Of a DNA stretch of 64,000 nucleotides, positions 187 through 60,180 are shown one piece after another. The position numbers and the translations under genes are program-made. The stretch's first letter is position 1, and every line of letters starts with the position of its first letter. The notes below the pieces were generated by a model, which was not told the origin of the DNA, searched no databases, and saw only the letters and a program-made list of their open reading frames with translations. Source of the stretch: Candidatus Cloacimonetes bacterium HGW-Cloacimonetes-2 (GTDB taxonomy: Bacteria > Cloacimonadota > Cloacimonadia > Cloacimonadales > Cloacimonadaceae); contig PHBP01000008.1 in NCBI GenBank assembly GCA_002842035.1, positions 1 through 64,000 on the forward strand, given 5' to 3'.

Positions 187-745
187 AAATTATGATTTCG
201 AATCGAATTGATTTGGACTCGCTCAAACCTATATGGCACTCTATAAACTTTTTGAAAGATCATTTTGTATCTGCTCATCGCAAGCAGGTTTTGCCAGACT
301 CTTGATGGCCGTTTTTTTGTCAATAGCTTTTTTTAAGATTTCTTCATATTGGAGACAGATATTAATCTTAACAGGCTGCATAATATGCTATTAGGAAATC
401 GTAAAAAAATCCTCCGCCCCTGTTAATGAACCCGGAAACAGCCACGTGACTGGTCTCTGGAGAGCATACACAAAGCCAAGCACTACTACCAAAACGCGAA
501 AATACTCTGTGTATGATTGCGCGATTGCCGGATAATGGCTCTACAACACCGCTCCATATCACCTCCTTTTCAATTGATGGTCATCAAACACTTACAGCAA
601 GCCTGTTTCCTGTATCTTCATACAGGATTCAAGCAGGATTCAAGCAGGATACAAGCAGGATATCAAGCAGGGAGTGAGAAGAGGCTTGACACAAAAACAA
701 CAGTCCTGTAAGCAGCATCTAAATCTACAATATAAGGAAGGAATC
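187..745. other. rRNA leader/promoter region and gap before queC
   Basis: No convincing gene. The 16S leader lies on the minus strand; a perfect TTGACA sits at 323-318, but no good -10 hexamer follows at 16-18 bp, so the promoter assignment is weak. The right half (561-674) is a family A repeat, listed separately. A 64-codon minus-strand reading frame at 368-562 has no ribosome site or protein-like composition and is ignored. Confidence 0.5.
561..674 (+). repeat. Intergenic repeat family A, copy 1 (11-bp tandem units)
   Basis: Starts with CCTCCTTTTCAATTGA, a left end shared with the copies near 13.9, 20.6 and 53.2 kb. A hairpin CCTGTAT/ATACAGG (609-615 and 620-626, loop CTTC) leads directly into tandem units: GATTCAAGCAG at 626-636 and 637-647, GATACAAGCAG at 648-658, and a 12-base variant at 659-670. 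It ends near GGGAG at 670-674, so the ends are roughly inverted (CTCC...GGGAG). It lies just upstream of queC. Confidence 0.85.
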
Positions 746-1420
746 ATGCGCAGAGCAGTGGTTTTGGTCAGCGGAGGGATGGATAGTCTGGTTGCGGCTG
801 CAATCGCGGTCAAAGAATGCGAAGAAGTGAATTTCCTGCATATAGATTATGGGCAAACTACGATGTCCAAAGAGGCTGAGTGTTTTGAGGCGATGTGCGT
901 ACACTATATGCCTAAGCGCTCCAAAACGATAAAGATGATGTGGCTTTCGGAGATTGGCGGCTCGGCTCTTACGGACGAATCGATGCAGATAGAAGATCAT
1001 AGCGAGCTCAACGAGATACCCAATACTTATGTCCCCTTCCGTAATGCTAATTTGATCGGAGCAGCAGTGAGCTGGGCGGAAGTAATCAATGCCAGCCGAG
1101 TCTATATCGGTGCTGTGGAAGAGGATAGCTCCGGTTATCCGGATTGCAGGGAAGATTTCTTTAGAGCTTTGCAGCTTGCCATCGGTAAAGGAACCAAAAC
1201 CCCCAATCCAATAATGATCAGTACGCCTGTGCTGCATATGAGCAAAGCCCAAATCGTTAAGAAAGGGCTGGAACTGGGTGCGCCTTTTCAGCACTCCTGG
1301 AGCTGTTACCGGGACAACCAAATTGCCTGCGGCACCTGTGATAGCTGCTATCTGAGGTTGAAAGCCTTCAGAGAAGCCGGCATACACGATCCGATCCCCT
1401 ACAAAAATCAAGGAATATAA
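746..1420 (+). CDS. queC: 7-cyano-7-deazaguanine synthase (QueC)
   Basis: Converts 7-carboxy-7-deazaguanine, ammonia and ATP to preQ0, the precursor of queuosine in tRNA. The 224-residue protein opens with a PP-loop ATP-binding motif SGGMDS near residue 9 and ends with the zinc-binding cysteine cluster (SWSCYR, then CGTCDSC) typical of QueC. The ATG at 746 is chosen because AAGGAAGGA lies 5-10 bases upstream; an in-frame start further up would fall in the repeat region. The asparaginase gene follows without a gap (TAA then ATG), so the two are probably cotranscribed. No other queuosine genes are nearby and no preQ1 riboswitch is recognisable upstream. Confidence 0.95.
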   Translation: MRRAVVLVSGGMDSLVAAAIAVKECEEVNFLHIDYGQTTMSKEAECFEAMCVHYMPKRSKTIKMMWLSEIGGSALTDESMQIEDHSELNEIPNTYVPFRNANLIGAAVSWAEVINASRVYIGAVEEDSSGYPDCREDFFRALQLAIGKGTKTPNPIMISTPVLHMSKAQIVKKGLELGAPFQHSWSCYRDNQIACGTCDSCYLRLKAFREAGIHDPIPYKNQGI

Positions 1421-2395
1421 ATGAAGAAGATCCTAATCATTCTCACCGGTGGCACAATTGCAATGAAGGCATCCGGCAATCTGGGCGTGGTGCCGACCAG
1501 TGACTTTGCCCAGTTCATAAAGTCATTTCCCCAATTGGAGAGCGTTGCTGATGTGGACGTCTGGGAATATTCCAATATCCCCAGCCCTTATATGACGCCG
1601 GAGATGATGTTTGGTCTTGCCAAGGATCTCGATCTCAAGATAGTGGATTATGATGGCGTAGTGATCACGCATGGCACGGATACTTTGGAAGAAACAGCTT
1701 TTCTTTGCGATCTGGTGCTCACGACACGCAAACCGGTCGTCTTTACGGCAGCAATGCGCAGCGGAAGCGATCTGGGACTGGATGGACCGCGTAATATCAT
1801 CGGTGCGGTAAGAGTCGCCAGCGATATCGAATCGTATGACAAGGGCGTTTTAGTAGTAATGAACGACGAAATCCACACTGCCAGGGACGTCGTAAAAAGT
1901 GATTCAGGCAAGGTGGGAGCTTTTACTTCCCCGGGGTATGGGCCACTGGGAATAGTCGATCCGGATCGCATAGTTTATCACCGCTCCAGCCACTACCGGG
2001 AAAACGTCTGGACCGATAAACTCGATACGAATATTGATTTGATCAAGGCTTCGGCAGGCATCGACGGCAGATACATCCGCTGTTCGATAGAGCATAATGC
2101 CAAAGCTATCGTAATTGAAGCATTCGGCAGGGGTAACCTGCCAAACTATCTGATTCCCGATATCGATAAAGCGATCGAGGCCGGGATCCTGGTTGTCATC
2201 AGCACCAGGACATTCACCGGCAGGGTCTTGCCGGAATACGGATATGAAGGTGGCGGAAAGGATCTGGAAGATCGGGGAGCTTTACTGGCTGGAGATCTCA
2301 AAGGCAACAAAGTACGGCTTAAACTGATGGCGCTATTTGGCAAATACGGCAATGCCGATACGGTGAAACGTTTCTTTCTGCAGAACCGGGACTAA
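1421..2395 (+). CDS. ansA: Type I L-asparaginase family protein
   Basis: Predicted cytoplasmic asparaginase (L-asparagine to aspartate and ammonia). The 324-residue protein begins with the family signature ILTGGTIAMK, where the first catalytic threonine lies, and contains THGTDTLEETAF around residues 84-95, the second catalytic Thr-Asp pair. There is no signal peptide. Length fits the AnsA/GatD-like asparaginase fold. It starts at the ATG directly after the queC stop and its stop codon overlaps by 4 bp the stop of the convergent radical SAM gene. Substrate could also be another amide, as the superfamily is shared with GatD; asparaginase is more likely because no GatE partner is present. Confidence 0.88.
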   Translation: MKKILIILTGGTIAMKASGNLGVVPTSDFAQFIKSFPQLESVADVDVWEYSNIPSPYMTPEMMFGLAKDLDLKIVDYDGVVITHGTDTLEETAFLCDLVLTTRKPVVFTAAMRSGSDLGLDGPRNIIGAVRVASDIESYDKGVLVVMNDEIHTARDVVKSDSGKVGAFTSPGYGPLGIVDPDRIVYHRSSHYRENVWTDKLDTNIDLIKASAGIDGRYIRCSIEHNAKAIVIEAFGRGNLPNYLIPDIDKAIEAGILVVISTRTFTGRVLPEYGYEGGGKDLEDRGALLAGDLKGNKVRLKLMALFGKYGNADTVKRFFLQNRD

Positions 2396-4833
2396 CTATA
2401 TATAAAACGTATCCTGCTAATCTCAAAGCTATAAAGAATCTTGCGGGATAGCCCCAGGATGCTCTCCAGAATGCCAAACAGGGATGGACTCTGTAAGTCT
2501 TTGGTGATCAGTATCTCATTGCCTTCCAGACTAATCTCCGTGATGATGAGGCTAAGATTGTAGGTCTTTTCCCGCTTCTCGGTTTTCTTTGTATAAGGAT
2601 GGGAATCGCGGCTGCGGAATAAGGCGATAGAGGATGCAACCTGATCGGCAAACAATGGATTGATTAGCACTCTGAGCTCTTCCGCAACAGGTAACATAGC
2701 CTTGGTGCCAGTCTTTTCCACGCGTATTATCTGGAAATCCGGGATCTTGATCTCTGCGAATTTATCTGCGATGATTTGAACTGCGTAAGGCTCAAAATAC
2801 GATACGTCAAAGTACTCTTCCTCACCGTTGATGCCAAGAGGCAGGGGTGGCGAAAGGCTTACTTTGGGATGGGGATTGAAGCCCTGGGTAAAGACGGTCT
2901 CCAGTTTGAGCGATGATATCCACCTAAATAGCATCCGCATCCAGTCCAGATGGGCAATAAAGCGCAGGATGCCGGTCTTGCGGTAGAAAACTCGATAGTG
3001 ATGCTGGTCTTGCAAGCGGCGAGCTGTGTCTATTGGCTCAATCTTCTGTCTTGCGGGTTTAAGGTCAATCGGGCTGGCAGAAACGGTTGCAGTCTTGTCA
3101 TCACAAGCTCCGCACATACTGCACAATTCGCGGCAATCCTCGGTGGTCTCCTCCGCCAAAGCTCTTTGAAGCTCGATCAATAGAAAGCTCTTGCAGACTC
3201 CGGTATCCACGAAATCCCAAGCCAAGTGGTCTTCGGTCTCGATGCGATCGAGAACAACTGCAAGATCAAGGTCCATCTCCCGGGCAGCATCTTCCCAGCG
3301 GGAATAACTAAAAGATTCGTTCCAGCCATCATAGATAGCGCCATTACGCCAGGCTTTGTGGATCAATTCCGAGATCTTGGCATCACCACGGCTGATGATG
3401 GCTTCCAGCTTGGAGCTCTCAAGATTGTGGTAACGTATCTTGATATTGCGCTGCTTATTGTAGTGGTGTTTGACTCTCAGGATACGGGAAAGGCTTTGTT
3501 CCAGAGGCGCAAAAGCTTCCCACTGGAAGGGAGTAAATGGCTTTGGCACAAAAGGAGAAAGGGTAACATTGATTTGTAGCCTGCCTCTGCCCAAGCGGTT
3601 TATCTTGCCAATCAGATCGATGATTCCATCGATATCTTCCTCTGTCTCGGTAGGGAGTCCGATCATAAAGTAGAGCTTGATCTTCTGCCAACCCAGCGAG
3701 ATAGCCGTCTCGATCCCTTTGAGGATGGATTCCTCGGTAAGATTCTTGTTGATCACGTCCCGGAGGCGCTGCGAACCGGCTTCGGGAGCAATGGTGAGCC
3801 CCTCTCTACCGAGGTCTTTGAGGCTGGTTACCAGCTCGTCATCCAGAGAATCAACCCTTAGAGAAGGCAGAGAAACGTGTGTCTGGTCTGTATCGAGAGT
3901 ATTAAGCAGATTTAGTAAGAGCGGCTTGATGCAGGAGTAATCGCTGGATGATAGCGAGATCAAGCCAGCTTCATCCCAGCCTGTCTGGCGAGTCTCACGC
4001 AGCAGCTCCTCAAGTATGTCGTCTGCATTGCGCTCCCTGACCGGACGGTAGAAGTATCCTGCGTGGCAGAATCTGCAACCCCGGGAGCAACCTCGCATAA
4101 TCTCCGCGACATAGCGGTTGTGTGTAGCCAATTGCCAGGACATTATCTGCGGACTATGCAGCGCATTCCCTTCGTGAAACAAGCTGTACTTTCTTGCTTT
4201 GATGGTCTTTGAAGGGTTCAAGCCGTGAATAGATGGCACATAGCAGGATTCAAGCCCGGATAGTCTGAGCAGCCTGCTTTCCTTGTCCGGACAAGCTCTC
4301 AGTATCTCTGCAATCTCCACAATGGCTTCTTCTGCCTCTCCAATAAAGAAGACATCTATAAAAGACGACAAAGGCAGAGGATTAGTAGCACAAGGTCCAC
4401 CTGCCATAACAATCGGACAATCAGTTCCTCTCTGGGCTGCAAGGACAGGTATCCCTGCAATATCCAGCATCTCCAGTATATTGGTAAAGGTGAGTTCACT
4501 CTGCAGAGTAAGGCCCAAAAGATCAAAATCTCTTACCAGCAATCTGCTTTCCAAGCCCCAAAGCGGCAGCTCTTCTTCCCGCATCAGCTTGATCATATCC
4601 AGCCAGGGCAGATAGACCCGATCCGCCATCGCCCAATCAAGACGGTTGATGATTGAGTACAGGATCTTAAGGCCAAGGTGAGAGACACCCAGTTCGTAAA
4701 GATCAGGAAAAGCCAGGCAGATACGGACGTCAACGTTATTAGGATCTTTGTGGACGGCATTGATCTCGTTATCAATATAGCGCGAGGGTTTTTCCACCAA
4801 AGGCAGAATGGAATTGATGTCTATTTGGTTCAT
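2392..4833 (-). CDS. Radical SAM protein fused to a DUF2344 domain (TIGR03960/TIGR03936 type)
   Basis: An 813-residue cytoplasmic protein. The N-terminal third resembles a B12-binding-like domain; the middle has a radical SAM core with the cluster motif RGCSRGCRFCHAGY near residues 251-264; the last roughly 210 residues match the DUF2344 family (ILRFIAHLDWMR and TQGFNPHPKVSLSPPLPLG). In many bacteria these are two adjacent genes near ribosomal or RNase E/G genes; here they are one polypeptide. Function is unknown; a role in RNA or protein modification has been suggested for the family. It lies 2 bp downstream of nrdG in the same operon. Family placement is strong, activity is not known. Confidence 0.85.
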   Translation of the reverse strand: MNQIDINSILPLVEKPSRYIDNEINAVHKDPNNVDVRICLAFPDLYELGVSHLGLKILYSIINRLDWAMADRVYLPWLDMIKLMREEELPLWGLESRLLVRDFDLLGLTLQSELTFTNILEMLDIAGIPVLAAQRGTDCPIVMAGGPCATNPLPLSSFIDVFFIGEAEEAIVEIAEILRACPDKESRLLRLSGLESCYVPSIHGLNPSKTIKARKYSLFHEGNALHSPQIMSWQLATHNRYVAEIMRGCSRGCRFCHAGYFYRPVRERNADDILEELLRETRQTGWDEAGLISLSSSDYSCIKPLLLNLLNTLDTDQTHVSLPSLRVDSLDDELVTSLKDLGREGLTIAPEAGSQRLRDVINKNLTEESILKGIETAISLGWQKIKLYFMIGLPTETEEDIDGIIDLIGKINRLGRGRLQINVTLSPFVPKPFTPFQWEAFAPLEQSLSRILRVKHHYNKQRNIKIRYHNLESSKLEAIISRGDAKISELIHKAWRNGAIYDGWNESFSYSRWEDAAREMDLDLAVVLDRIETEDHLAWDFVDTGVCKSFLLIELQRALAEETTEDCRELCSMCGACDDKTATVSASPIDLKPARQKIEPIDTARRLQDQHHYRVFYRKTGILRFIAHLDWMRMLFRWISSLKLETVFTQGFNPHPKVSLSPPLPLGINGEEEYFDVSYFEPYAVQIIADKFAEIKIPDFQIIRVEKTGTKAMLPVAEELRVLINPLFADQVASSIALFRSRDSHPYTKKTEKREKTYNLSLIITEISLEGNEILITKDLQSPSLFGILESILGLSRKILYSFEISRIRFIYS

Positions 4834-4835
4834 AT

Positions 4836-5576
4836 TTATAATGATCTAATACGTATTTTAATCTTGTTATCCTTGCCCCACCGGACAAAGTCCTTGCCGA
4901 CAGGATCATCAGAGAGATGCGGAAAAACGCTTTCTATCTGCTTGTTATCGGGCTCACCAAGCTGAATGAGTGTATCGTTGTAGCGGCATTGCTGGATATA
5001 ATACTTGTCACCGGGGTGCAGTAGGCTCTTGATTTGATCAATATCGCTCCATCCAAGGAGCTTGTCAAAAAGAGTAGTACGATACTCATAGTCGAGCCCG
5101 CTATTCCTGATAATATCCATCGATTCCCTGATCAAGGAACCGTCTATCGGTACTTGAGTGACCACAGGATACAGATGCATCGGTGCTTTGAGATCCATAG
5201 CGACATAATCGATCAATCCCAGATTGATCAATTCACTTAGCACCTCGGGCTTTGAGCCATTGGTATCAAGCTTGATGACATAGTCCATCGCCTTAACCTT
5301 GCGGATAAAGGGCAGCAGAGCTTTCTGCAAAGTTGGCTCTCCACCGGTGATTGTGACAGCGCCGAGCCTGCCTTTGCGCTGCTTTAGGAATGCTAATATT
5401 TCTTCTTCCGGGATTGTCTGCTGGTAGCGCAGAGGATCCACCAGGTCAGGATTGTGGCAATAGGGGCAACGGAAGTTGCAGCCTTGGGTAAAGACAATCG
5501 CCGATAGCTTCCCAGGATAATCCAAGAGCGAAAATCTTTGAAAACCGCCTATGATCACCGATGCAAGCCCTTTCAA
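4836..5576 (-). CDS. nrdG: Anaerobic ribonucleoside-triphosphate reductase activating protein (NrdG)
   Basis: Radical SAM activase that installs the glycyl radical on NrdD. The 246-residue protein has the [4Fe-4S] cysteine motif in TQGCNFRCPYCHNPDLV (residues about 30-46) and a GGEPTL motif near 79-84 that binds SAM. The long form (about 230-250 residues) is the one commonly paired with class III reductases outside enterobacteria. The start codon overlaps the nrdD stop (ATGA), implying translational coupling and equal dosage. Confidence 0.93.
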   Translation of the reverse strand: MKGLASVIIGGFQRFSLLDYPGKLSAIVFTQGCNFRCPYCHNPDLVDPLRYQQTIPEEEILAFLKQRKGRLGAVTITGGEPTLQKALLPFIRKVKAMDYVIKLDTNGSKPEVLSELINLGLIDYVAMDLKAPMHLYPVVTQVPIDGSLIRESMDIIRNSGLDYEYRTTLFDKLLGWSDIDQIKSLLHPGDKYYIQQCRYNDTLIQLGEPDNKQIESVFPHLSDDPVGKDFVRWGKDNKIKIRIRSL

Positions 5577-7708: not shown

Positions 7709-8100
7709 CCGATCCTCCTTCTATCAAATCCATAATTTATTTTAACATATAATGTTAGCTTACTCAAGACGGAATTCCCAAATTAAGCAAGACATACATA
7801 AGTTTAATTCTGACAGAACTTGTGAATCTGTCAAGACAATAAAAGCTGAAAAACAGAGGTTTTTTGACCCTAATCAATGCGAACTGACAGTCCTGATAAT
7901 GCTTATGAGCCTGAAGGCTATTTTGTTGATTTTTATACCAATTATCCTAATCTTCTGTTATGCAGGAAATTCCGGATTGGAGGGTGATAAACTACATTAA
8001 GCTCTGATCCCGGGAACACCTATATTCAAGCTAATACACCCCATTACCGAGTACTTTTTCCACATATTTCTATGCCAGCTTGCTGCTTGAACGGCCAGGT

Positions 8101-8148
8101 GATCCCCTTGTGATCCCCTTGTGATTCCCTAGTGGCGACAAGGGAATC
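8101..8148 (+). repeat. Intergenic repeat family B, copy 1
   Basis: Three direct 11-bp units (GATCCCCTTGT at 8101-8111 and 8112-8122, GATTCCCTAGT at 8123-8133), a 4-base loop GGCG, then one inverted unit ACAAGGGAATC (8138-8148). The third unit and the inverted unit can pair with a single mismatch to make a hairpin. The same plan is found at 43.87 and 60.0 kb. Confidence 0.88.
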
Positions 8149-8212
8149 TCCAGTGGAGTGCCTGTGTGTTACCGGAGATTTCAATAGGAGCGTATAAGGC
8201 AAAAGAAATAAA

Positions 8213-13799: not shown

Positions 13800-14356
13800 A
13801 GAGCATTGAGCCGCTATCCCACGCTCTGGCTCTACTAATCGCGCTCCCCTACAGTTCCTGCATGCTGGCTGCTTGTAGCCTGCTTGAATCCTGCATGAAC
13901 ATCCATCAAAGAACTGTTTTACAATGACTTACCACTGCGCAATCGAAAGGGAGGGACTAAGCTAAAATACAGCAGAAGCTTACGCACATGATTCATCAAT
14001 AGAAAGTTTCTTCAAAAGCCCCAAGATTTTTTCATAAATCTCTCCCCCACTTTTAGCAAAACAGACACTACTCTATCAGAACGCCTGTACAGACGGGATA
14101 CTTGCTGCTGCCTCAATCGCATCAAGACTTGATCAGGGCTGGTTTCACAGGACTATCCAAAGTCTATCAATACCGGCGTTCGGACACGATATACCCTCGG
14201 AAGGGTTCGTGAAATAGATGGTGGGCTCGGCTGTGTCTTCTGTAGAACGGACATCTGCAAGATGCTCGTTTCGGAACAAAAACACGGTTCACATGGGACG
14301 TGTTTCGTTGCATTGCCCGGGAGATTTTGGGCGGGAGCTCAAGCCCCGGGCTTTTT
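13800..14356. other. Gene-free stretch with repeat and candidate ncRNA
   Basis: No protein gene seen. The left part is a family A repeat (13842-13956, minus orientation), the middle (13960-14150) is plain AT-rich sequence, and the right part (14165-14357) is a structured, terminator-ended region listed as a candidate RNA. Confidence 0.5.
13842..13956 (-). repeat. Intergenic repeat family A, copy 2
   Basis: Minus-strand reading gives CCTCCCTTTCGATTG at its left end, then TTTGATGGATGTTCATGCAG, then 11-bp units GATTCAAGCAG, GCTACAAGCAG and a degenerate unit, ending with GGGGAG. It is closely similar along its length to the copy at 20.6 kb (same GATGGATGTTCATGCAG core), showing that the family is a roughly 115-bp element rather than just a tandem repeat. 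Confidence 0.85.
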
Positions 14357-20547: not shown

Positions 20548-20571
20548 ATCTGTATAAGAGGTAATCCCTTA

Positions 20572-20688
20572 GCCCCTCCCTTTCAATTGACATCTGCTAA
20601 ACACTTGTAAATCAGTTGTTTGATGGATGTTCATGCAGGATTCAAGCAGGCTACATGCAGGCAGCATGCAGCATATCAAAGGGGAGGC
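20572..20688 (+). repeat. Intergenic repeat family A, copy 3
   Basis: Left end CCCCTCCCTTTCAATTGA, centre TTTGATGGATGTTCATGCAG, then 11-bp units GATTCAAGCAG, GCTACATGCAG and GCAGCATGCAG, right end ATATCAAAGGGGAGG. The ends are a clear imperfect inverted repeat (CCCCTCCCTTT against AAAGGGGAGG). Lies between convergent genes and their terminators. Confidence 0.88.
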
Positions 20689-20695
20689 ATAAAGA

Positions 20696-32362: not shown

Positions 32363-32754
32363 GAACCGAAGTGCAGTATCCTGATTTGAGTTGACCCTTA
32401 TCAAATCATTGTCCGTTTATAATTGAAACGACTAACTAAGACCTGAAAATTCATCCTGCTCCCTTCCTTAGTCCCCCATAAGATTCTTTAGTGATTCTTT
32501 AATGACTCTTTAATGATTCTCTAATCGGATTAGAGAATCATTAGAGAATTGTACCAGCATTATTAGTCAGTCTTAGCAGGGAGAAAAGGGGCATAAGGCT
32601 AGATTAAAGCACTATCCCTGCTGGATAGCACTGCCACCCAAACCAAATCTCTCGATCTGCTTGACAGTTTTAGCAGTGGCAATATCGGGGACTATGGAGT
32701 GATGATGATAGCTATTAGAGATATTGATCCCGTGATGACAGGGAGCGCTGGCTG
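32363..32754. other. Gene-free stretch with the family C repeat
   Basis: Contains the 11-bp-unit element at 32482-32550, described separately, with flanks CCCTTCCTTAGT on the left and GCAGGGAGAAAAGGGG on the right. No gene or further signal is seen between the repeat and the EamA gene. Confidence 0.6.
32482..32550 (+). repeat. Intergenic repeat family C (11-bp units, direct then inverted)
   Basis: Four direct 11-bp units (GATTCTTTAGT, GATTCTTTAAT, GACTCTTTAAT, GATTCTCTAAT at 32482-32525), loop CGG, then two inverted units ATTAGAGAATC (32529-32539) and ATTAGAGAATT (32540-32550). A transcript could fold into a perfect 11-bp hairpin extended by a second turn. Same plan as family B but different unit sequence. 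Confidence 0.88.
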
Positions 32755-36613: not shown

Positions 36614-36686
36614 ATATACTGCCATTCTAGACCCCCGTCATTCCTGCGAACGACTCAGCAAAGCCCTTGATTTGGTGAGTCTTGCA

Positions 36687-36902
36687 GGCAGGAATCCATA
36701 AAGTCCCGGAGGTAAGAATCTAAAGTGTCCCGGAGGCAGGAATCCATAAAGTCCCGGAGGTAAGAATCTAAAGTGTCCCGGAAGCAGGAATCCATAAAGT
36801 CCCGGAGGTAAGAATCTAATGTGTCCCGGAGGCAGGAATCCATAAAGTCCCGGAGGTAAGAATCTAAAGTGTCCCGGAAGCAGGAATCCATAAAGTCCCG
36901 GA
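36687..36902. repeat. 24-bp tandem array of two alternating unit types (nine units)
   Basis: Units of type a (GGCAGGAATCC then ATAAAGTCCCGGA) and type b (GGTAAGAATCT then AAAGTGTCCCGGA) alternate strictly a-b-a-b-a-b-a-b-a for 216 bp. Copies differ only by single bases (for example AGCAGG in the third and fifth a units and TAATGTG in one b unit). Because 24 is a multiple of three, the minus strand stays open for 85 codons with a 16-residue periodic translation; this is a by-product and not called a gene. No unique spacers, so not CRISPR. Confidence 0.93.
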
Positions 36903-36980
36903 GGGACGTCATTCTATAGCCTGGGGTGGAGCGTAGCGTAACCCCAGGAAAATGGTATCTGAGAGTATTTTTCCCGTATT

Positions 36981-37036
36981 ATCCCCACCCCCAGATACGA
37001 GGAAACTCTTGTTTCCTCGTATCTGGGGGTGGGGAT
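36981..37036. repeat. Perfect 26-bp inverted repeat with 4-base loop
   Basis: Left arm 36981-37006 begins ATCCCCACCCCCAGATACG and right arm 37011-37036 ends ATCTGGGGGTGGGGAT, exact complements over 26 bp around TCTT. Too long and without a T run on either side to be a standard terminator; it may be a palindromic mobile-element end or a structural element. Confidence 0.92.
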
Positions 37037-43683: not shown

Positions 43684-43865
43684 AACTTAAAATCCTCGCT
43701 ATATATCATTTCTTGACTTCTAAATCTACATCTCTATCCTTGTGCAATTATCGTTCCGAAATATAAAAAGACAATCAAGTACAGAGCTTTTATTGCCGAT
43801 TCTCAGGTTTTGGATGCTATCCTCCCTCTTTGAATAGTCTGGCAATGGCAGGGCACAGCTCTGGA

Positions 43866-43913
43866 GATCCCCTTGTCGTCACAAGAGGATCACTAGGGGA
43901 TCACTAGGGGATC
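43866..43913 (-). repeat. Intergenic repeat family B, copy 2
   Basis: On the minus strand: two direct units GATCCCCTAGT, one GATCCTCTTGT, loop GACG, then inverted ACAAGGGGATC. Plus-strand positions: inverted unit 43866-43876, loop 43877-43880, direct units 43881-43913. Outside it CTCCCTCTTTGAAT (43822-43835) and ATTCAAAGGGAAAG (43922-43935) are inverted, giving outer ends. Confidence 0.88.
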
Positions 43914-43967
43914 ACCTGAGAATTCAAAGGGAAAGAACCAGGGAAAAGCCCGGGATCAATATCTTAC

Positions 43968-52595: not shown

Positions 52596-52604
52596 GGTAA
52601 GAGT

Positions 52605-53102: not shown

Positions 53103-53127
53103 CTTATCCACGATCGTCGGATTAAGG

Positions 53128-53253
53128 CACCCCATAGGGCTCTGCTTGATAGGATGCTTGTATCCTGCTTCTATCCTGCTTGAATCCTGCATGAACATGC
53201 ATGATACTACTGTCCTGCAAGGTTTTATGGATTATCGATTGAAAGGGTGGGCT
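53128..53253 (-). repeat. Intergenic repeat family A, copy 4
   Basis: Minus-strand reading starts CCACCCTTTCAATCGAT, continues with GCATGTTCATGCAG (itself a small hairpin with loop TTCA), then 11-bp units GATTCAAGCAG, GATAGAAGCAG and GATACAAGCATC, ending near CAAGCAGAGCCC. Lies between the convergent cNMP and acpS genes. Confidence 0.87.
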
Positions 53254-53274
53254 GAAAGGCTGGATTGGGGAAGT

Positions 53275-53658
53275 TTAGGCTCCGCTACTTTCCAGGATCA
53301 CGTAGGCAATGGCATAATCCTTTTCGTGGCTGAGAGATAGGTGGAGTCCGTCAATACCGTGCACGCGGACATATTCCAGGCTGGCATTGTGTAGAACGAG
53401 CTCCGGTTTGCCCAATTCATCGGAGACCACTTCGATATCTGCCCAATTGATTTTACCATCCCAGCCTGTACCAATCGCTTTCATCACAGCTTCTTTGGCA
53501 GCAAAGCGTGCAGCATAGCTTTGGTATTTTGATGCCCTTGATTCGCAATAAGCTATTTCATTTGGGGTGAAGACCTTATCCACAAAGCGGGGATTGTTTG
53601 TGATAGTGCGTTCCAATCTCGAAACCTGGATAATATCAGTGCCTATACCTTTGATCAC
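53275..53658 (-). CDS. acpS: Holo-[acyl-carrier-protein] synthase (AcpS)
   Basis: Attaches 4'-phosphopantetheine to acyl carrier protein. The 127-residue protein shows the magnesium and CoA-binding motifs GIGTDIIQVSRLER (start) and RFAAKEAVMKAIGTG (about 53-67), and the C-terminal HLSLSHEKDYAIAYV. Last gene of a minus-strand pair, overlapping ogt by 4 bp. Confidence 0.94.
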   Translation of the reverse strand: MIKGIGTDIIQVSRLERTITNNPRFVDKVFTPNEIAYCESRASKYQSYAARFAAKEAVMKAIGTGWDGKINWADIEVVSDELGKPELVLHNASLEYVRVHGIDGLHLSLSHEKDYAIAYVILESSGA

Positions 53659-54101
53659 GAGAGGTTTCCCTCCAATCTCAGGAGCATTTCCTTGAGCTCC
53701 AATCCCCCGGCATAACCGCGCAGGTTGCCGTCTTTGCCGATTACTCTGTGGCAGGGGATAATGATGGCTATGGGGTTCTTGTTGATAGCGTTACCGACTG
53801 CGCGAGAAGCCTTTGGACGGCCAATCGCCACGGCAATCTCGCTGTATGTCCGGCTCTCACCATAAGGTATTTTTAGCAGCTCTTCCCAGACCAGCTTTTG
53901 GAAGTCTGTACCCTCGGGAGCGAGAGGCAGATCAAAGCTGCTGCGACTACCTTCAAAGTATTCCTGGAGCTGCTCTTTGACTTGCTGTTCCAGAGCGGTC
54001 AGGGGACGCTGGGTCTCCTCACCTGTTCTGAAGCTCAAGGATACAATCGCATCCTCTGAGCAGATCAAATCGAGCTTGAGGCTTATCTTCATTGGTTTCA
54101 T
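53655..54101 (-). CDS. ogt: Methylated-DNA-protein-cysteine methyltransferase
   Basis: Repairs O6-methylguanine by transferring the methyl group to its own cysteine. The 148-residue protein has the active-site IPCHRVIGKDGNLRGYAGG (Cys near 116) and the recognition helix YSEIAVAIGRPKASRAVG. It lacks the N-terminal Ada domains, so it is the stand-alone type. In-frame starts at 54101 and 54092 are both possible. Confidence 0.92.
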   Translation of the reverse strand: MKPMKISLKLDLICSEDAIVSLSFRTGEETQRPLTALEQQVKEQLQEYFEGSRSSFDLPLAPEGTDFQKLVWEELLKIPYGESRTYSEIAVAIGRPKASRAVGNAINKNPIAIIIPCHRVIGKDGNLRGYAGGLELKEMLLRLEGNLS

Positions 54102-54138
54102 AGGCTTGCCTTGTATTAGCTTGGTATGTCTGAGCTAA

Positions 54139-54172
54139 AGAAAAAGCCCCAAACCAGCGGGTGGCAGGGGCT
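54139..54172 (-). terminator. Terminator of the rpsP-rplS operon
   Basis: AGCCCC (54145-54150) and GGGGCT (54167-54172) pair; on the minus strand TTTTTCTTT follows. It lies 22 bp after the rplS stop and about 38 bp before the ogt start. Confidence 0.8.
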
Positions 54173-54193
54173 GTGAATCTGTGAATTACGCAT

Positions 54194-54547
54194 TTAGGCA
54201 GTGAATCTTCTGCGTTCTTTGATCCTGCCGGCTTTGCCTTTGGCGCTGCGCAGGTAGAACAGCTTGGCGCGACGGACTTGACCGTGACGGACGATCTCGA
54301 GTCTGTCGATATTGGGTGAATGTTGCGGGAAAATTCTTTCCACGCCGATACCATTCGACACCTTGCGTACTGTGAAGGATTTGGAAATTCCGGCTCCACG
54401 CTTCTGTATGACGATGCCTTGGAAAACCTGAATACGCTCTTTGCTTCCTTCTTTTATTTTATAATGGACCTTGACCGTATCGCCTACGCGATAATCGGGA
54501 AAGTCGGTTCTGATTTGGTCTCTGCCGATTGTTTGCAGAATATCCAT
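54194..54547 (-). CDS. rplS: 50S ribosomal protein L19
   Basis: A 117-residue ribosomal protein at the subunit interface. Family signatures: [37 protein letters not shown]. The ATG at 54547 is chosen since GGAGG lies 4 bases upstream; an earlier ATG (54559) would sit before that ribosome site. The start lies inside the tail of the upstream RNA methyltransferase gene. Confidence 0.96.
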
Positions 54548-55118
54548 GGTTCCTCCCATTTATATTTTCGGAAGTGATGCGGTCCAGCACTATGGCAACT
54601 GCACTGCGAACAGAAAGATGATTGTAAGATCCTGTGCCCTTTATCGGCATCAGGATGTAATCCGCAGAACGGTGAATTTCTTCAGCGAGGCCATAACCGG
54701 TGCCAAACAAAAGCAGTGCCGGACGAGAGCCTGCGCAAAGTGAATCGAGATCCCCAAAGCTGATCTGCCCCGGGATCTCCCTTGCAGTGGTCGTTATTAC
54801 TATGGGCTGCAACCCTTCCTGACTTGTAATCTGTGATATGAGCGCTTCGATACTCTCTTGACAAGTCACCCTGGCAAGAGCTTCCCGACGGTCGGGATTG
54901 TAGAGCAGTGCGTCGTTTGTATCCCAGAAATCGAGGATACGCCCGACCATCTCCCTTTGAAGCGGATCGGGACTGATAATAGTATAAGATTCAATACCGT
55001 AACAGGCGGCTGTTCTGGCAATATCGTGGATATCAAGATTGGCGATCGAGGTCATAATGACCTTCCCGTACTTGTTATAAACGGGGTAATGCACCAATGC
55101 CAGGTATAGCTTAGTCAC
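54459..55118 (-). CDS. Predicted SAM-dependent RNA methyltransferase (Methyltrn_RNA_4)
   Basis: A 219-residue protein of the SPOUT-like family found between trmD and rplS in many bacteria. The N-terminal [20 protein letters not shown] and [11 protein letters not shown], and C-terminal [31 protein letters not shown], are family marks of the knotted fold. The conserved part ends near residue 186; about 33 extra, basic and low-complexity residues follow and overlap rplS by 89 bp. The start is GTG and overlaps trmD by 8 bp. RNA target unknown. Confidence 0.85.
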
Positions 55119-55788
55119 GCTTGAGAAGATCCGGCCTGCGCATTCTGGTCAGCAACGAGGCTTGGTCTTTTGCCCAGGCAGTGATCTTTTTGTGATTGCC
55201 TTGCTTCAGCACTTCCGGAACACCCAATCCCATTATTTCTTCAGGACGGGTATAGCAGGGAAAGCCAAGCAAGCCATTGTAAAATGAATCACTTTCAGCA
55301 GATCCGATATCGGAAAGAACTCCCGGCAATAGCCGCGCCACTCCATCGATGAAGACCATTGCTGCCAGCTCTCCGCCTGAAACGACGTAATCTCCAATAG
55401 AGATCTCATCGCTGACGGCAAGATCGCGGACGCGCTGATCAATGTCTTTGTAGTGGCCGCAAAGGAGTATCATACGATCCAGCTTGCTGTAATGCAGCAG
55501 GATGTCCTGAGTAAGCGGTCTGCCTTGTGGGCTGAAGTAGATCACTGGAGCGGGGCCATCATCGAGAACACTATCGATTGCTTTGATGACGGGCTCTGCC
55601 TGCATAACCATTCCGGCAAAACCGCCATACGCGTAGTCATCGACTTGACGATGCTTGTTTGTGCTAAAATCACGGATATCGGTAAAGCGGAGCTCCAAAG
55701 CCTCCTGACGGATGGCTTTGCCGATCATACTGCTGCTTTTAAAGCCTTCAAAGATCCCCGGGAAGAGGGTAAGCGTGTTTATCAGCAC
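55111..55788 (-). CDS. trmD: tRNA (guanine-N1)-methyltransferase (TrmD)
   Basis: Makes m1G37 in tRNAs reading CNN/CGG codons, preventing frameshifts. The 225-residue length is normal. Trefoil-knot motifs: DDYAYGGFAGMVMQAEP (about 51-67), FSPQGRPLTQ, LLCGHYKDIDQRV and IGDYVVSGGELAAM. Start codon is GTG. Encoded between rimM and the RNA methyltransferase. Confidence 0.95.
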   Translation of the reverse strand: MLINTLTLFPGIFEGFKSSSMIGKAIRQEALELRFTDIRDFSTNKHRQVDDYAYGGFAGMVMQAEPVIKAIDSVLDDGPAPVIYFSPQGRPLTQDILLHYSKLDRMILLCGHYKDIDQRVRDLAVSDEISIGDYVVSGGELAAMVFIDGVARLLPGVLSDIGSAESDSFYNGLLGFPCYTRPEEIMGLGVPEVLKQGNHKKITAWAKDQASLLTRMRRPDLLKRD

Positions 55789-55792
55789 GGCT

Positions 55793-56305
55793 TTAGTCCT
55801 CCTGCGGGATTAGCTCTTCCAGGTTGGTTAGCTCGATAACAGCTGCTTCGGCATCCGCGCTGCTCACAAAGTGATCAACGAAAGGTACCAAGAGCTCCTG
55901 CTCGTCCGAGCTTTCAATCTCCAGAACGTATTGGGCATTATTGTGAAAGTATGACCTGAGCGTTCCTATCTGCTTCCCCTGATGCAAAACAATTGCACCA
56001 ATGAGAGCATCAAGCTCGTCGTCCTCAGATTCCATATCCTCGGGAGCAACAGCCAGAATAACTTCCCGGTGCTTCTGACGCTCCTGACGGATACCATCCT
56101 CGCGGAACTTGATCCATATCTTCTTATCAGTCTCTTTTAGTTCACTGATACTAACGTAAAACACTCTATCGCTGTTAAAGATCAGAAACACCTCATCAAG
56201 CTCCTGGAGCAAGTCCCGATACTGCGGTTTCACCATTATATGGTAATATCCATCAGCATCAAGACCGCCAAGCCTGCCTATTCCGATGAGGTCTTGAAGG
56301 TTCAT
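55793..56305 (-). CDS. rimM: Ribosome maturation factor RimM
   Basis: Assists 30S head assembly around S19. A 170-residue protein with the N-terminal RimM barrel (LIGIGRLGGLDADGYYHIM) and a PRC-barrel C-terminal domain ending in LTNLEELIPQED; the usual IPYVDEFV-like core appears as VPFVDHFV. Its ATG follows the khpA stop without a gap. Confidence 0.92.
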   Translation of the reverse strand: MNLQDLIGIGRLGGLDADGYYHIMVKPQYRDLLQELDEVFLIFNSDRVFYVSISELKETDKKIWIKFREDGIRQERQKHREVILAVAPEDMESEDDELDALIGAIVLHQGKQIGTLRSYFHNNAQYVLEIESSDEQELLVPFVDHFVSSADAEAAVIELTNLEELIPQED

Positions 56306-56536
56306 TTATTCGATAATTTCGAGTTCTGCTCGTTTTCCTTGCTTGGTGCTCACTGCGTTGATGATCACACGGATAGCACCGGCAGTTCTGCCGCGCTTTC
56401 CGATCACCTTACCGATGTCGCTCTTAGCCACTCTAAGTTCATAGAGAGTAATCTTGTCTCCGGCAATCTCAGTGATGTTGACTTCGCTGGGATCATCAAC
56501 CAGAGCCTTGACCATAAATTCAATAAGCTCTTTCAT
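56306..56536 (-). CDS. khpA: KH-domain RNA-binding protein KhpA
   Basis: A 76-residue single KH domain; the RNA-binding GxxG loop is GKRG in KSDIGKVIGKRGRTAGAIR (about 40-58). In other bacteria it pairs with KhpB and binds many RNAs. Its place between rpsP and rimM is the widely conserved one. Confidence 0.95.
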   Translation of the reverse strand: MKELIEFMVKALVDDPSEVNITEIAGDKITLYELRVAKSDIGKVIGKRGRTAGAIRVIINAVSTKQGKRAELEIIE

Positions 56537-56567
56537 TTTGCACCTCTTAAGTACTAGACTTCAGTTC

Positions 56568-56858
56568 TCAGGCTTCTTGTTCGGCTTTCTTTTGGGCTAC
56601 CTTATGCTCGTGCCAAATCTGCAGGACGCCGGCTCTGCGAAGCAGTGAGCGCACTGTATCAGTAGGCTGGGCACCGACGCTCAGCCAGTAGATGGCACGA
56701 TCGGTTTCGACATTGAGCTTCAGGTCTTTCGGCTTGGGGTCGTACCAACCAACGCACTCAATATATTTGCCATCACGCTTTACGCGGGAATCGACAGCAA
56801 CGATGCGATAGAAGGGTTGGTTGTTGGCACCCATCCGTCTCAATCTCAGCTTGACCAT
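56568..56858 (-). CDS. rpsP: 30S ribosomal protein S16
   Basis: A 96-residue ribosomal protein beginning [19 protein letters not shown], with [11 protein letters not shown] in the middle. First gene of the ribosome/tRNA-modification operon. A TTGACG 66-71 bp upstream (56929-56924, minus strand) may be its -35 box. Confidence 0.96.
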
Positions 56859-56923
56859 TATTTCTCCTTGTATTTCATTAACTTTTACACTTAGAGTGCC
56901 ACATTTTTACGGGAACACGATTT

Positions 56924-56929
56924 CGTCAA
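56924..56929 (-). promoter_or_regulatory. Possible -35 box of the rpsP operon
   Basis: TTGACG on the minus strand, 66 bp before the rpsP start, with TAAAAATG 20 bases further as a weak -10. Confidence 0.35.
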
Positions 56930-56980
56930 GCCATTTCTTTGGAAAAATATAGGGCTTGTGTGGCAGATTGATCACGCAGG

Positions 56981-57862
56981 CTAAAAGATCAGCTCTGAGA
57001 CATCAAATGGAATAGCTCCCCGATACTCGTAGGGCTTGGTGATTTCCATACCAAAGGCATCAATCACGACTGTTCCGCTGATTCGATAGGCAATTTCTCC
57101 CCTTACGACTCCGCCAAGAGCATTTATGATTGACTTGAAGTTGTTGATCCGCATAATCATAGTACCATTCTTGCTATAGATATCTTCTGTAAATCCAAGC
57201 TGATATTCAAGATTGGCAGTGCCCACTTTACGGTCGTTGATAAAGACCTCCGCGGGGAAATTCCTGAGCCTGAAGGACAGTCCATAAGGATTCAGGATCA
57301 AAAACTCAGATTTGACCTCTGTGGATGTAATACCCCAATCCGAGATATAAGTCCTCTGGAGGCGAAAGAGATCCTGCCCGTTTGCTGAAAACCTGGGTAT
57401 CAGATCCGAGATATAATCCCTGATATTAAGCTCATAAGGCTCCTCAAAACTTATCCGCTTAGTACAACCGAGAGCTTTGCCGCGCCCTTGCCCCACTATG
57501 TAAAAGAAGACAACCTGATCGGAGTGACTGATCATCTTGGCTGTCTTGCGGGTATCCAGGACTACATTGAAGTCAATATTGGTCGATCTGGTGCCCGGAA
57601 TCATAATCCTGTTGTTCATTCTGGCAGTTCCGATTGCCACTCTGTCACGATCCAAAAGCGTAAGATTGAGCTCATTCAATGTAAGCTTGTAACTATTGGG
57701 ATTATTTACTTTAACACTGATCAAAAGATTAGTCTGATCCGGCGTCATCGAGGCTATCCTGATATCGTGGATCTTATCAACTGTAGGCTTCTTGAAGAGC
57801 CGGCAAGAGCTGAGAACCATCACCAATACCAGCATAATGATTATCTGAATTGATCTTTTCAT
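56981..57862 (-). CDS. LEA14-like (WHy-domain) lipoprotein
   Basis: A 293-residue exported lipoprotein: lipobox LSSC (Cys 20), then two copies of an LEA type 2/WHy beta-sandwich. The first has ISVKVNNPNSYKLTLNELNL (about 49-68), the second EFLILNPYGLSFRLRNF (about 183-199), each with the Asn-Pro hallmark. Such proteins are linked to stress or membrane stability, but no activity is established. 13 bp downstream of asnB in the same direction. Confidence 0.85.
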   Translation of the reverse strand: MKRSIQIIIMLVLVMVLSSCRLFKKPTVDKIHDIRIASMTPDQTNLLISVKVNNPNSYKLTLNELNLTLLDRDRVAIGTARMNNRIMIPGTRSTNIDFNVVLDTRKTAKMISHSDQVVFFYIVGQGRGKALGCTKRISFEEPYELNIRDYISDLIPRFSANGQDLFRLQRTYISDWGITSTEVKSEFLILNPYGLSFRLRNFPAEVFINDRKVGTANLEYQLGFTEDIYSKNGTMIMRINNFKSIINALGGVVRGEIAYRISGTVVIDAFGMEITKPYEYRGAIPFDVSELIF

Positions 57863-57875
57863 TTCCTAAAATCCT

Positions 57876-59852
57876 TTACTTATTGTCACAAAAGCGTCTA
57901 AACCAGATTTCCTGCGCCAGGACATTGAAGAGCATCTCGGCAGGAGCTTGCTTGCCACTAAGATATTCTTTCCACTTGCGATGAATGACCGGCAGATTCC
58001 ACAAGTTCCTGCGTCTGAACTCACTGGAGTGAACAATCTCCTCAATATACGGCTTTAGCGGACCCCTCATCCAGGTGCTAAAGAAGGGCGAGGAAAAGAT
58101 ACCCTTATCCCTGCGTTCATAGATCTCACGCGGCACGATTTCTTTCATCGCCTCGCGGTGTATGTATTTGTGCATTGGAGGTTTAATCTTGTATTCAGCA
58201 GGCAGGCTAAAGGCAAAATCTACTAGCCTGTGATCCAGGAAAGGAACCCTGCTTTCGACCGAATTAGCGCTGGACATCCGGTCTTCCAGATGCAGAAGTG
58301 TCTGGATCGATGTACTATGCAGCATATTAAAGAGGAAGTTATCCAGCCTGGAACCCTTGATATCGTGAATCTGCCCCAGAATCCCTCCCGAGGCAGCAGT
58401 ACGCGCCTGCTCGATGAAATCCCGGTTAAAAGGCTCAAAGCGATAGTGGCTGAATTCCAGCTTGTAGAGTGACGATTCGGGAAGCAGCGCAGATAGTAAG
58501 ACCTTGCCCAGTTTTGCTCCCATAGTTCCCGGCTTGTCACCTGATAAATAGTCTCTCAGCTCTTTCTGCAAGATCCCAAAACGCCCGGAGCGGATTTGAT
58601 CCGCAAAATAGCGGTATGCAGAATGACGATAGCCGGCAAAAAGCTCGTCCGAGCCCTGTCCGGAGAGCAACACTTTGATGCCCTGCTCTCTCACAGAATG
58701 CATTACTGCCCACTGCGAGGTATATCCTGCCCGTGTCGGCAAGTCGTTGTAATATGTAACTTTATCCAGCCAATCCCAGGCATCCTGCGCCCCTGGTGAG
58801 ACATAGTAAGGCTGCGAACCGGTCTGCCCCACGATAAGATCTATCCACTTCCTTTCATCCAAAGCCGGATCGTCCGAATAGAAGCTGCTAAAGGTCCGCA
58901 TTCCGTGCCCTGATTGGCGATGGGCGCTACAGACAATTGCCGAGGAATCCATCCCTCCGGAAAGACTTGCCGCGATCTCCACATCGCTGCGCAGATGCAG
59001 GCTAAGGCTATCTTCAAACAAGCCCCGATAGGTCTCCACTGCTTTTTCAAAGCTGAGCCCGGACTTACCAAATGCTGCCGTATCAATTTCATAATATGCG
59101 TGGGTAGTGATCTCCCGATCCGATACGATCATATTATGCCCCGGCTTGAGAGCTCTGATCCCTTTCCAGAAAGTCTCCTCGCCATAAACCAAGAGAGAAT
59201 TGATCTTCATCGAACGCCAGATCATCGGATAATTCAGCGACTTATCGATTGGCAGATCCAAGAATTGCTTCATTTCAGAGCCCCAGAAGAGCCCCTTATC
59301 CGTCTTTGCATAGTAGAAAGGCTTGATTCCAAAGCGATCCCGGGAGATGAAAAGTCTCTGCTTTTTCTGATCCCAGATCACAAATGCCCACATTCCGATG
59401 AAGTGATCTACGCAAGCATCGCCCCAATGGTGATATGCCTTGAGAATCACTTCCGTATCGGAATGTCCCGTAAAGCCATAGCCCAGGGCAGTCAATTCCC
59501 TCAGGAGTTCCTGATAGTTGTAAATCTCACCATTAAAGGTTACACTAAGCCCCAGAGCCTCATCGTGCATAGGCTGATGACCTGCCTGAGATAGCTCCAA
59601 TGTAGAAAGCCTGCGAAATCCAAGACCGAGCGAAGCAGAAGCAGGTGCTGACAAGAGAGGACAGAGCTGCCGTGCCTCATCGGTTGATTGAGGACCCGAA
59701 AACGAACACGCCTTCCCGGCTGCCCGATCGATCAGCAAATAGCCTTCATCATCCGGCCCGCGATGCCGGATCGTATCCGTCATCCGTTTCAACTGATGGA
59801 TATCGACTACTGCTTTGGGATCAAAGAGATAGATTCCGCTTATTCCGCACAT
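57876..59852 (-). CDS. asnB: Asparagine synthetase, glutamine-hydrolysing (AsnB)
   Basis: A 658-residue enzyme. The N-terminal Ntn glutaminase begins MCGISGIYLF with Cys 2 as nucleophile, with RHRGPDDEG and SVTFNGEIYNY; the C-terminal synthetase has the pyrophosphate loop SLSGGMDSSAIV near residue 295 and VLLSGQGSDELFAGY near 381. It is the long (about 610-660) form seen in polysaccharide loci as well as in primary metabolism, so another amidotransfer target is possible. Opposite in metabolism to the asparaginase at 1.4 kb. Confidence 0.9.
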   Translation of the reverse strand: MCGISGIYLFDPKAVVDIHQLKRMTDTIRHRGPDDEGYLLIDRAAGKACSFSGPQSTDEARQLCPLLSAPASASLGLGFRRLSTLELSQAGHQPMHDEALGLSVTFNGEIYNYQELLRELTALGYGFTGHSDTEVILKAYHHWGDACVDHFIGMWAFVIWDQKKQRLFISRDRFGIKPFYYAKTDKGLFWGSEMKQFLDLPIDKSLNYPMIWRSMKINSLLVYGEETFWKGIRALKPGHNMIVSDREITTHAYYEIDTAAFGKSGLSFEKAVETYRGLFEDSLSLHLRSDVEIAASLSGGMDSSAIVCSAHRQSGHGMRTFSSFYSDDPALDERKWIDLIVGQTGSQPYYVSPGAQDAWDWLDKVTYYNDLPTRAGYTSQWAVMHSVREQGIKVLLSGQGSDELFAGYRHSAYRYFADQIRSGRFGILQKELRDYLSGDKPGTMGAKLGKVLLSALLPESSLYKLEFSHYRFEPFNRDFIEQARTAASGGILGQIHDIKGSRLDNFLFNMLHSTSIQTLLHLEDRMSSANSVESRVPFLDHRLVDFAFSLPAEYKIKPPMHKYIHREAMKEIVPREIYERRDKGIFSSPFFSTWMRGPLKPYIEEIVHSSEFRRRNLWNLPVIHRKWKEYLSGKQAPAEMLFNVLAQEIWFRRFCDNK

Positions 59853-60180
59853 ATTAGTTTCCTTTGAGGCAGAAAAGACCGATCAGCAAAAGAGTCAAGG
59901 AAATAATTGCGCAGTCCAATCCCGCCCGTTGAGATAAGTCCTATCACTATGTGCCAGCTGCCTTTGCGCCAAAGCCCCAATCATTCCTGCTTGAATACTC
60001 TGGAGATCCCCTAGTGATCCCCTAGTGACTCCCTTGTGGCGACCAGAGGATCTCCAGAGAATTGCCCGCCCTATTCGAGAGATCTCAAAAGGCAAGCCAG
60101 CGAGCAGCAAAATTTTTGTATTGACAGCTAAAATGTGTCTTGAAAAATGATCTTACAATTACGCTAAGAAAGGAGTCGTC
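59853..60180. other. Gene-free stretch with a family B repeat
   Basis: Upstream of asnB. Contains the family B repeat at 60005-60052, with outer inverted arms GCCAGCTGCCTTT (59950-59962) and AAAAGGCAAGCCAGC (60088-60102), and a TTGACA box at 60121-60126 facing the small ORF. Nothing else seen. Confidence 0.6.
60005..60052 (+). repeat. Intergenic repeat family B, copy 3
   Basis: Direct units GATCCCCTAGT (60005-60015 and 60016-60026) and GACTCCCTTGT (60027-60037), loop GGCG, then inverted ACCAGAGGATC (60042-60052). Flanked by TCTGGA on the left and TCCAGAGA on the right, which extend the pairing. Confidence 0.88.

Follow-up and report, generated by a model that had tools for sequence, protein, structure and literature searches.

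Intergenic elements of 11-bp units in a Cloacimonadaceae genome: modular geometry, mutual exclusion and turnover

How can repeat families with seemingly unrelated sequences share one unit length and one layout? The question is raised by a stretch of 64,000 nucleotides (hereafter the window) from Candidatus Cloacimonetes bacterium HGW-Cloacimonetes-2 (contig PHBP01000008.1 of assembly GCA_002842035.1, positions 1 to 64,000), in which a first-pass annotation had marked three intergenic repeat families, A, B and C, all made of tandem 11-mers next to a hairpin. We are very confident that this intergenic feature is real, and it is larger than first described. Each 11-mer array forms only the core of a complete element, which measures 114 bp in A and B and 125 bp in C, and the genome contains well over 160 such elements between its genes. 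They have a modular geometry and similar ends, exclude each other over kilobases, and are subject to turnover. Contigs of this genome are labelled C1, C2 etc., relatives G001 etc., and sampled loci L071 etc.

Architecture of the elements

Tandem 11-mers were present at all eight places at which they had been noted. The complete elements range from about 90 to 127 bp and are near-symmetrical inverted repeats whose arms are built of 11-bp units. Family B consists of a 55-nt arm, a 4-nt loop, and a second 55-nt arm, 114 bp in total. We read 18 B copies, taken from the window and from C1 1-200 kb, outward starting at the loop; C2 1-200 kb was scanned alongside and contained none. The left arm has 55 nt in 17 of the 18 and 66 nt in one, which has an extra unit, while an end-motif routine placed the right arm at 55 nt in 16 and misplaced it in the other two, where it is 55 nt by eye. 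The core that had been described for B, three direct units, a GGCG or GACG loop and one inverted unit, is found in all three window copies. For family A, 28 copies, picked among 38 anchors for array regularity, align ungapped over 114 columns. The A model spans 109-112 positions at 72 of its 86 places in the genome, 119-123 at four and 86-108 at ten; A copies are not invariably whole, nor exactly 114 bp. The family C element was delimited by eye and is one unit longer (114 + 11 bp). Its core agrees with the earlier description and comprises four GATTCTYTAAT-type units, the 3-nt loop CGG, and two inverted units, between the ends CTCCCTTCCTTAG and CTTAGCAGGGAG.

The ends are similar across the three families, with CTYCC..TTGA or TTAG on the left and TCAA or TTAG..GGRAG on the right. 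They form terminal inverted repeats in which CTYCC..TTGAA and TTCAA..GGRAG pair in register. Searching plainly for pairs of these end motifs was too weak, yielding nine pairs (five at 116 bp) and one in shuffled sequence. The families had been called unrelated-looking but are less so than this suggests, as they have their ends, their total length and the spacing exclusion in common. It had also been stated that the units are wholly different after base five. This is wrong for B and C, because the single pattern GAYYCYYTWRT, taken twice, matches both with zero mismatches. A clustered regularly interspaced short palindromic repeat (CRISPR) array was ruled out because the units abut without spacers between them.

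The three families were confirmed, but the list is incomplete. Family D, for example, has AGCAGATCAAG units flanking TCGAAC-NNN-GTTCGA and is present in C2 1-200 kb, whereas neither the window nor C1 1-200 kb gave a match. In all 11 D copies read (e.g. L079 at 12.9 kb) the innermost units are unequal, with CACC in one arm and CTTG in the other, and this asymmetry around TCGAAC/GTTCGA gives a direction to an otherwise palindromic element.

Table 1. Complete elements in the window and the basis of their delimitation
Element	Position	Strand	Basis
Family A, whole (114 bp)	562..675	+	ungapped alignment of 28 copies; model match C4:563-674
Family B, whole (114 bp), loop GGCG 8134-8137	8079..8192	+	element read from loop; B model
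Family A, whole (114 bp)	13841..13954	-	A alignment and A model
Family A, whole (114 bp)	20575..20688	+	A alignment and A model
Family C, whole (125 bp)	32459..32583	+	read by eye; + strand hairpin
Family B, whole (114 bp), loop GACG	43822..43935	-	element read from loop; B model
Family A, whole (114 bp), top-scoring A-model place in the genome	53137..53250	-	A alignment and model
Family B, whole (114 bp), loop GGCG	59983..60096	+	B model

In the first A copy of Table 1, the 11-bp phase is weak in the left arm, the centre is near TCTTCA, the right arm consists of CAAGCAGGATN units, and the ends are CTCC.. and ..CAAGCAGGGAG. The first B copy has its left arm at 8079-8133, with three GATYCCCTWGT units starting at 8101, and its right arm at 8138-8192, with the single inverted unit.

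Specificity of the 11-bp period

The window contains six arrays at period 11 and three in total at all other periods from 7 to 25, two of these at 22. Calling non-coding arrays at 18 or more of 22 self-matches, we found 37 at period 11 in 464 kb of the genome, seven at periods 7, 9, 16 and 22 together, and none at 8, 10, 12 or 13. In about 1.17 Mb sampled from 20 relatives of the same family, 27 period-11 arrays are spread over ten of the genomes; there are 18 arrays at period 7, 13 at 8, four at 9 and nine at 22, and none at 10, 12 or 13. Both arms of one hairpin may be counted separately in these numbers, and the 27 include an array, L224 of G016, that resembles a DnaA-box repeat. Ten order-level outgroups (280 kb) gave one array at period 11, one at 10, three at 9 and two at 7.

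A period-blind test for hairpins (40-nt arms with at least 29 pairs) detected 38 across 12 of the 20 relatives and 11 in the own genome, and none in the 280 kb of the ten outgroups or in shuffled DNA. At lag 11 the mean self-match of these hairpins lies between 0.38 and 0.60 in every one of the 12 relatives, and C2 has 0.59; other lags mostly reach 0.15-0.38. Exceptions are G002, in which lag 7, at 0.48 owing to a 7-bp repeat, exceeds lag 11 (0.44), and a window hairpin near 37006, which has no 11-bp phase; not all 38 hairpins in the relatives are 11-bp elements. Because A and B are too imperfect for this test (zero hairpins in C1), the hairpin and the array tests complement each other. The unit sequences differ among genomes, for example GTATAACCTTA, TCAATACGGAC, TGATACTCGGG and GACTCTTCGCC. 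Near-perfect hairpins of GACTCTTCGCC-type units at L081, L086 and L090 of G001 represent another family in a congener. The idea that the 11-bp grammar is kept while the sequence changes is thus supported by arrays and hairpins alike, in the own genome and in relatives. The first-pass annotation had named a freely varying period as grounds for refutation; this is not what we saw, since relatives whose units are different again use a step of 11 bp.

A general periodicity of about 11 bp in bacterial genomes has been described, in PMC4132750 and PMC516772, as a nucleotide or dinucleotide bias. Together with replication slippage on palindromes it could in principle generate such units, and unit numbers do change by single units, as slippage would yield. 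Here, however, exact words repeat, and units unrelated in sequence all choose 11. Slippage also gives neither dispersed copies nor an exclusion over 5 kb and is disfavoured by the spacing tests below, so that we regard it as the most improbable of the explanations considered.

Copy number and genomic placement

Because the B and A searches each scored 150 first-look candidates, the copy numbers are lower bounds. The covariance model of B gives 148 rows, which correspond to at least 77 copies once second-strand matches at the same places are removed, and the sequence model of A gives 87 rows at no fewer than 86 places. The 77 B copies measure 114 bp in 66 cases, 125 bp in five, 103 bp in one, 112 bp in three and 113 bp in two; six of the 11 copies deviating from 114 bp do so by exactly plus or minus 11.

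The two families partition the chromosome, with 66 of 77 B copies in C1, C4, C5, C11, C13 and C14 and 61 of 86 A copies in C2, C3, C8 and C10. The dnaA gene is on the B-rich contig C14. A search for dif returned a single place with two mismatches, which is close to the estimated chance number. B copies in C1, C11 and C14 often have a GATTTAACAAGGAGTAAAGGAG-like sequence at their right flank, which the window copies do not have.

Placement relative to genes was determined for 50 arrays that passed a threshold of 17 of 22 in C1, C2 or the window, with 120 bp as the minimum length of a spacer. Eight of them fall into open reading frames (ORFs) or short gaps according to a simple ORF call. The 42 assignable arrays are enriched in convergent spacers, with 15 arrays in 22 of these, compared to 27 in the 100 others (19 in 71 tandem and 8 in 29 divergent spacers).

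Some regions are free of elements. None was detected in the AT-rich polysaccharide biosynthesis island at C2 0.6-43 kb (L071-L073), where the GC content of the first 40 kb is 0.41-0.43 compared to 0.46-0.50 elsewhere in C2 1-200 kb. C10 126-186 kb contains no A or B model match, these being the two families searched there. Genes for a Mu-type transposase and an AAA ATPase are neighbours at about 166 kb of C10 (L341), within this stretch of 60 kb.

Turnover among relatives

Family A is essentially limited to the own genome, with weak matches in five of 30 relatives (best E 1.7e-5). The exact B pattern has zero matches in 59 relatives and also none in a collection of 84,980 species, which possibly does not include the own genome. 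A control with the reversed pattern says nothing about B, since GATCCCCTAG is identical when written backwards. Other families have a wider distribution. Allowing at most one mismatch, the unit TAATGAGTCCGTAWTGA is found at 147 places in G015 (often two per hairpin), 72 in G010, 44 in G029, 41 in G027, 17 in G030 and 16 in G009, and at one to three places in five more genomes (G011, G024, G035 and two order-level genomes); the reversed control gives zero places. This family is patchy, as it was not found in other species of the genera g3, g4 and g6. Furthermore, the family members G004, G005 and G007 show neither an 11-bp array nor a hairpin in the 62-80 kb sampled.

For six element-bearing spacers of the own genome an orthologue was available in the sampled congener stretches. 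One counterpart (G002) contains a clear but different 11-bp array, one (G001) a weaker look-alike recognised by eye (13 of 20 self-matches), and four contain neither. Given the patchy families and the element-free stretches, it seems that genomes gain such elements and exchange them for others in the course of time, and that recently acquired DNA lacks them.

Spacing and mutual exclusion

Copies of the same family avoid each other. The smallest gap between adjacent A copies is 5,029 bp, and none of 73 gaps is below 5 kb, compared to 16.3 expected for uniform placement. Between B copies the minimum is 4,031 bp, with one of 64 gaps below 5 kb compared to 18.5 expected. The families also avoid one another: only one of 86 A copies has a B copy less than 5 kb away, whereas 16.3 are expected when A is rotated within contigs, and none of 2000 rotations gave a number as low. 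Because the uniform and rotation nulls ignore genes, elements were also permuted among the real spacers. For B in C1 the count of gaps below 5 kb has P <=0.001. With every family detected in C1, C2 or the window pooled (52 elements), one of 49 gaps is below 4 kb compared to 18.2 expected (standard deviation 2.5), and the lowest of 5000 permutations was 9. This permutation kept the spacer type, dealt the seven elements without assigned type over all spacers, and merged elements at most 200 bp apart, by which an A-D pair at C2 96.6 kb was removed. Between A and B, the real spacers of C1 gave 0 of 6 compared to 3.7 (P 0.0008) and those of the window 0 of 4 compared to 0.8 (P 0.37, not significant). 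Recombination between close copies was set aside as a source of the spacing because the exclusion extends to A versus B, two families with little sequence in common.

In relatives, spacing was compared to uniform placement, the last match serving to estimate where a contig ends. G006, with 57 copies of its own family and one other element, has, once three doublets are merged, no gap below 3 kb (4.6 expected) and one below 5 kb (7.5 expected, P 0.0024). Among the places listed for G015, one of 22 gaps is below 5 kb (7.2 expected), and G010 has none of 17 (5.9 expected). Our confidence in the exclusion between A and B in the own genome is high, and in exclusion in other genomes moderate.

Such spacing would also result if the elements were chromosome-organising sites, along whose phased 11-bp units a protein polymerises, with about one site kept per 5-12 kb because selection acts on domain size or on the handling of supercoils. 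ParR, which acts on 11-bp iterons, is a model for such polymerisation. This is the main alternative to the mobile origin discussed below, and it is possible although we are inclined to doubt it. It agrees with the exclusion between A and B and in three relatives, with the bias towards convergent spacers, and with near-regular spacing locally: the 16 elements in C1 85-200 kb have a coefficient of variation (CV) of their gaps of 0.15, and C2 43-200 kb has a CV of 0.31. However, the former region was selected post hoc, and the whole of C1 0-200 kb does not exceed a hard-core model of 3.5 or 5 kb in regularity, so that regularity beyond exclusion is suggestive only. In addition, there are gaps of 18-42 kb where other families were also sought, besides the A- and B-free 60 kb in C10; unit sequences are unlike between congeners, some members of the family show no elements in their samples, and four of the six orthologous spacers have none. 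Organising sites account for the spacing as well as mobile elements do, and less easily for the large gaps, the patchiness, and the replacement of sequences.

Symmetry of the arms

The symmetry could reflect a folded strand or two sets of sites on duplex DNA. A hairpin had been reported next to the arrays, which is strong for C on the + strand (z -5.59 for 32459-32580) but weak for A, as three of the four window copies have z no better than -1.21 on either strand; the copy at 20570-20690 has -1.69 and -3.97 on its two strands. The B arms pair far better in register than when slid (72% compared to 41-48% of cells). Yet in 46 B copies there is no compensatory change between the arms: 72.1% of cells are paired compared to a shuffled mean of 72.1, 279 of 500 shuffles reached pairing as high, and the covariation score is 0.087 compared to 0.090 in shuffled copies. 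This test applies to the 46 B copies, as the perfect hairpins of the relatives offer no such test. Because the letters of the two B arms vary independently, the symmetry seems to come from two sets of duplex sites in opposite orientation, and a selected folded strand is not indicated. At gathering scores Rfam has three matches in the window, none of them on the elements. Elsewhere in the window, a 48-bp tandem array of 4.6 copies (36686-36948) overlaps with its end a predicted Acido-Lenti-1 RNA.

The first-pass annotation had suggested that the transcripts might form extendable hairpins, and selected hairpins could act, for instance, as terminators, attenuators or mRNA stabilisers. The step of 11 nt would then be one turn of an RNA helix, and the perfect hairpins in several relatives, the enrichment in convergent spacers, and the strong fold of C would fit. 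The suggestion is not borne out by the B arms and the weak A fold, nor by the presence of arrays in divergent, convergent and tandem spacers, and it leaves the 5-kb exclusion between families unexplained. Considering the absence of arm covariation and of target duplications (see below) and the occurrence in all spacer types, an RNA hairpin is clearly unlikely. The other idea of that annotation, that each unit occupies one helical turn, is supported.

Origin and possible mechanism

We consider the elements a class of small gene-less intergenic elements, comparable to miniature inverted-repeat transposable elements (MITEs) or repetitive extragenic palindromic (REP) sequences, which spread by a transposition- or copy-like process; we put the probability of this at roughly 0.5, and a mobile origin at about even odds. 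In its favour are the high copy numbers, the B lengths that differ by whole units, the prominence of period 11, the exclusion within and between families, the patchy and species-specific unit families, the element-free stretches, and the lack of covariation between the B arms. A single trans-acting protein might recognise the phased units in double-stranded form, all from the same side of the helix, and pair both ends of the element. Unit sequence and number could then change only in steps of one turn. A resident copy bound by this protein might block insertion nearby, similar to target immunity, and such blocking would space all families as one set.

Several findings weigh against mobility. 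Target-site duplications of 2-9 bp do not exceed the null: with boundaries of the 46 B copies shifted by up to 8 nt in either direction (A copies were outside this test), the best counts for 2 to 9 bp are 14, 5, 2, 1, 1, 1, 1 and 0, none over the highest null. Mean column identity is 0.95 for the units of B and lower, 0.82 and 0.76, for the outer ends, a difference that suits a reader of units better than a classic end-cutting transposase. Neither a mobilising enzyme in the genome nor a clean empty site was identified; the Mu-type transposase and ATPase pair was not linked to the element ends, the ends of the transposase locus being unread. The three family members without elements in their samples have to be added here. 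Strict immunity would also not be expected to allow the three close doublets of G006 (155-239 bp) or the A-D pair of the own genome (138 bp between array centres), and the exclusion is therefore not absolute.

A possible source of movement would be single-stranded DNA hairpins recognised by a Y1/HUH transposase, as in REP sequences and their REPIN assemblies or in IS200/605-like elements. High-copy intergenic palindromes without target duplication would fit, and the genome has a Y1 gene, the single match to PF01797 (C2:456445). This sole Y1/REP-associated tyrosine transposase (RAYT)-type match sits, however, among other repeats, and its 3.2-kb locus contains other hairpins instead of an 11-bp array. 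The RAYT was therefore set aside as mobiliser. GTAG and CGTC tags (either strand) are also rare near B ends, with at most four of 46 copies per tag and end, and the B arms do not covary. We regard this origin as rather unlikely. At L140 (C2:456 kb) the Y1/RAYT-type gene and the surrounding GGGTCCGTC..GACGGAC hairpins represent a separate REP-like system. Hairpins of the type GCGACATC..GTCGC flank the Y1 gene and also adjoin some B copies in C1.

A more far-reaching interpretation, which we put forward tentatively, is that bacteria of this family have, along the whole chromosome, a set of elements that spaces itself and whose identity is geometric and not sequential. Symmetrical arms of one-turn units between polypyrimidine and polypurine ends would be read by one machinery that recognises phase and symmetry and no fixed word, and unrelated families would replace each other under the same exclusion of about 5 kb. 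This would represent either a novel type of transposition that includes immunity or a new marker of chromosome domains that is absent from newly acquired DNA.

Comparison with known systems

In the literature searched, which covers few subscription journals, we found no described element of this kind. Families of REP sequences are species-specific and often located at gene 3' ends. The present elements resemble REP, REPIN and bacterial interspersed mosaic elements with their RAYT (TnpA-REP) in these two respects, and in being high-copy intergenic palindromes without target duplication. They differ in their modular 11-bp arms, their CTYCC/GGRAG ends, the rarity of tags at these ends, and the unlinked Y1 gene. 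They are also longer, 114 bp compared to the palindromes of 20-40 bp tagged by GTAG or CGTC that PMC3733652 describes, and they avoid one another whereas the REPs described there cluster.

With MITEs they have in common that they are gene-less and dispersed and have inverted ends. Miniature Tn3-type elements are MITEs with immunity, and the spacing found here is immunity-like. Unlike in MITEs, no target duplication and no parent transposon were found here (again with the ends of the transposase locus unread), the interior is more conserved than the ends, and there are arrays of 11-bp units. In the plasmid centromeres parC of R1, bound by ParR, and in the stb repeats of R388, bound by StbA, about five repeats follow each other every 11 bp, as in the present arms, so that binding is on one face of the helix. 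By analogy the present units may be bound in this way, but they occur in hundreds of chromosomal copies, in inverted arms, and with lineage-specific sequences. The matS, KOPS and Noc sites have one conserved sequence per protein. Like these, the elements have many copies across the chromosome and a regional bias; in contrast, their unit sequence changes between and even within genomes.

Bacterial repeats that are dispersed usually share a single sequence and are often found in clusters. Here, the geometry of 11-bp phase, symmetry and length is retained while the sequence is replaced, and different families avoid each other over kilobases. This points to a mode of recognition and a mechanism of spacing that are directly testable. 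The spacing and the unit grammar suggest a mobile or chromosome-organising element of an undescribed sort, and the elements may serve to tell old from newly acquired DNA in a group of bacteria that has been little studied.

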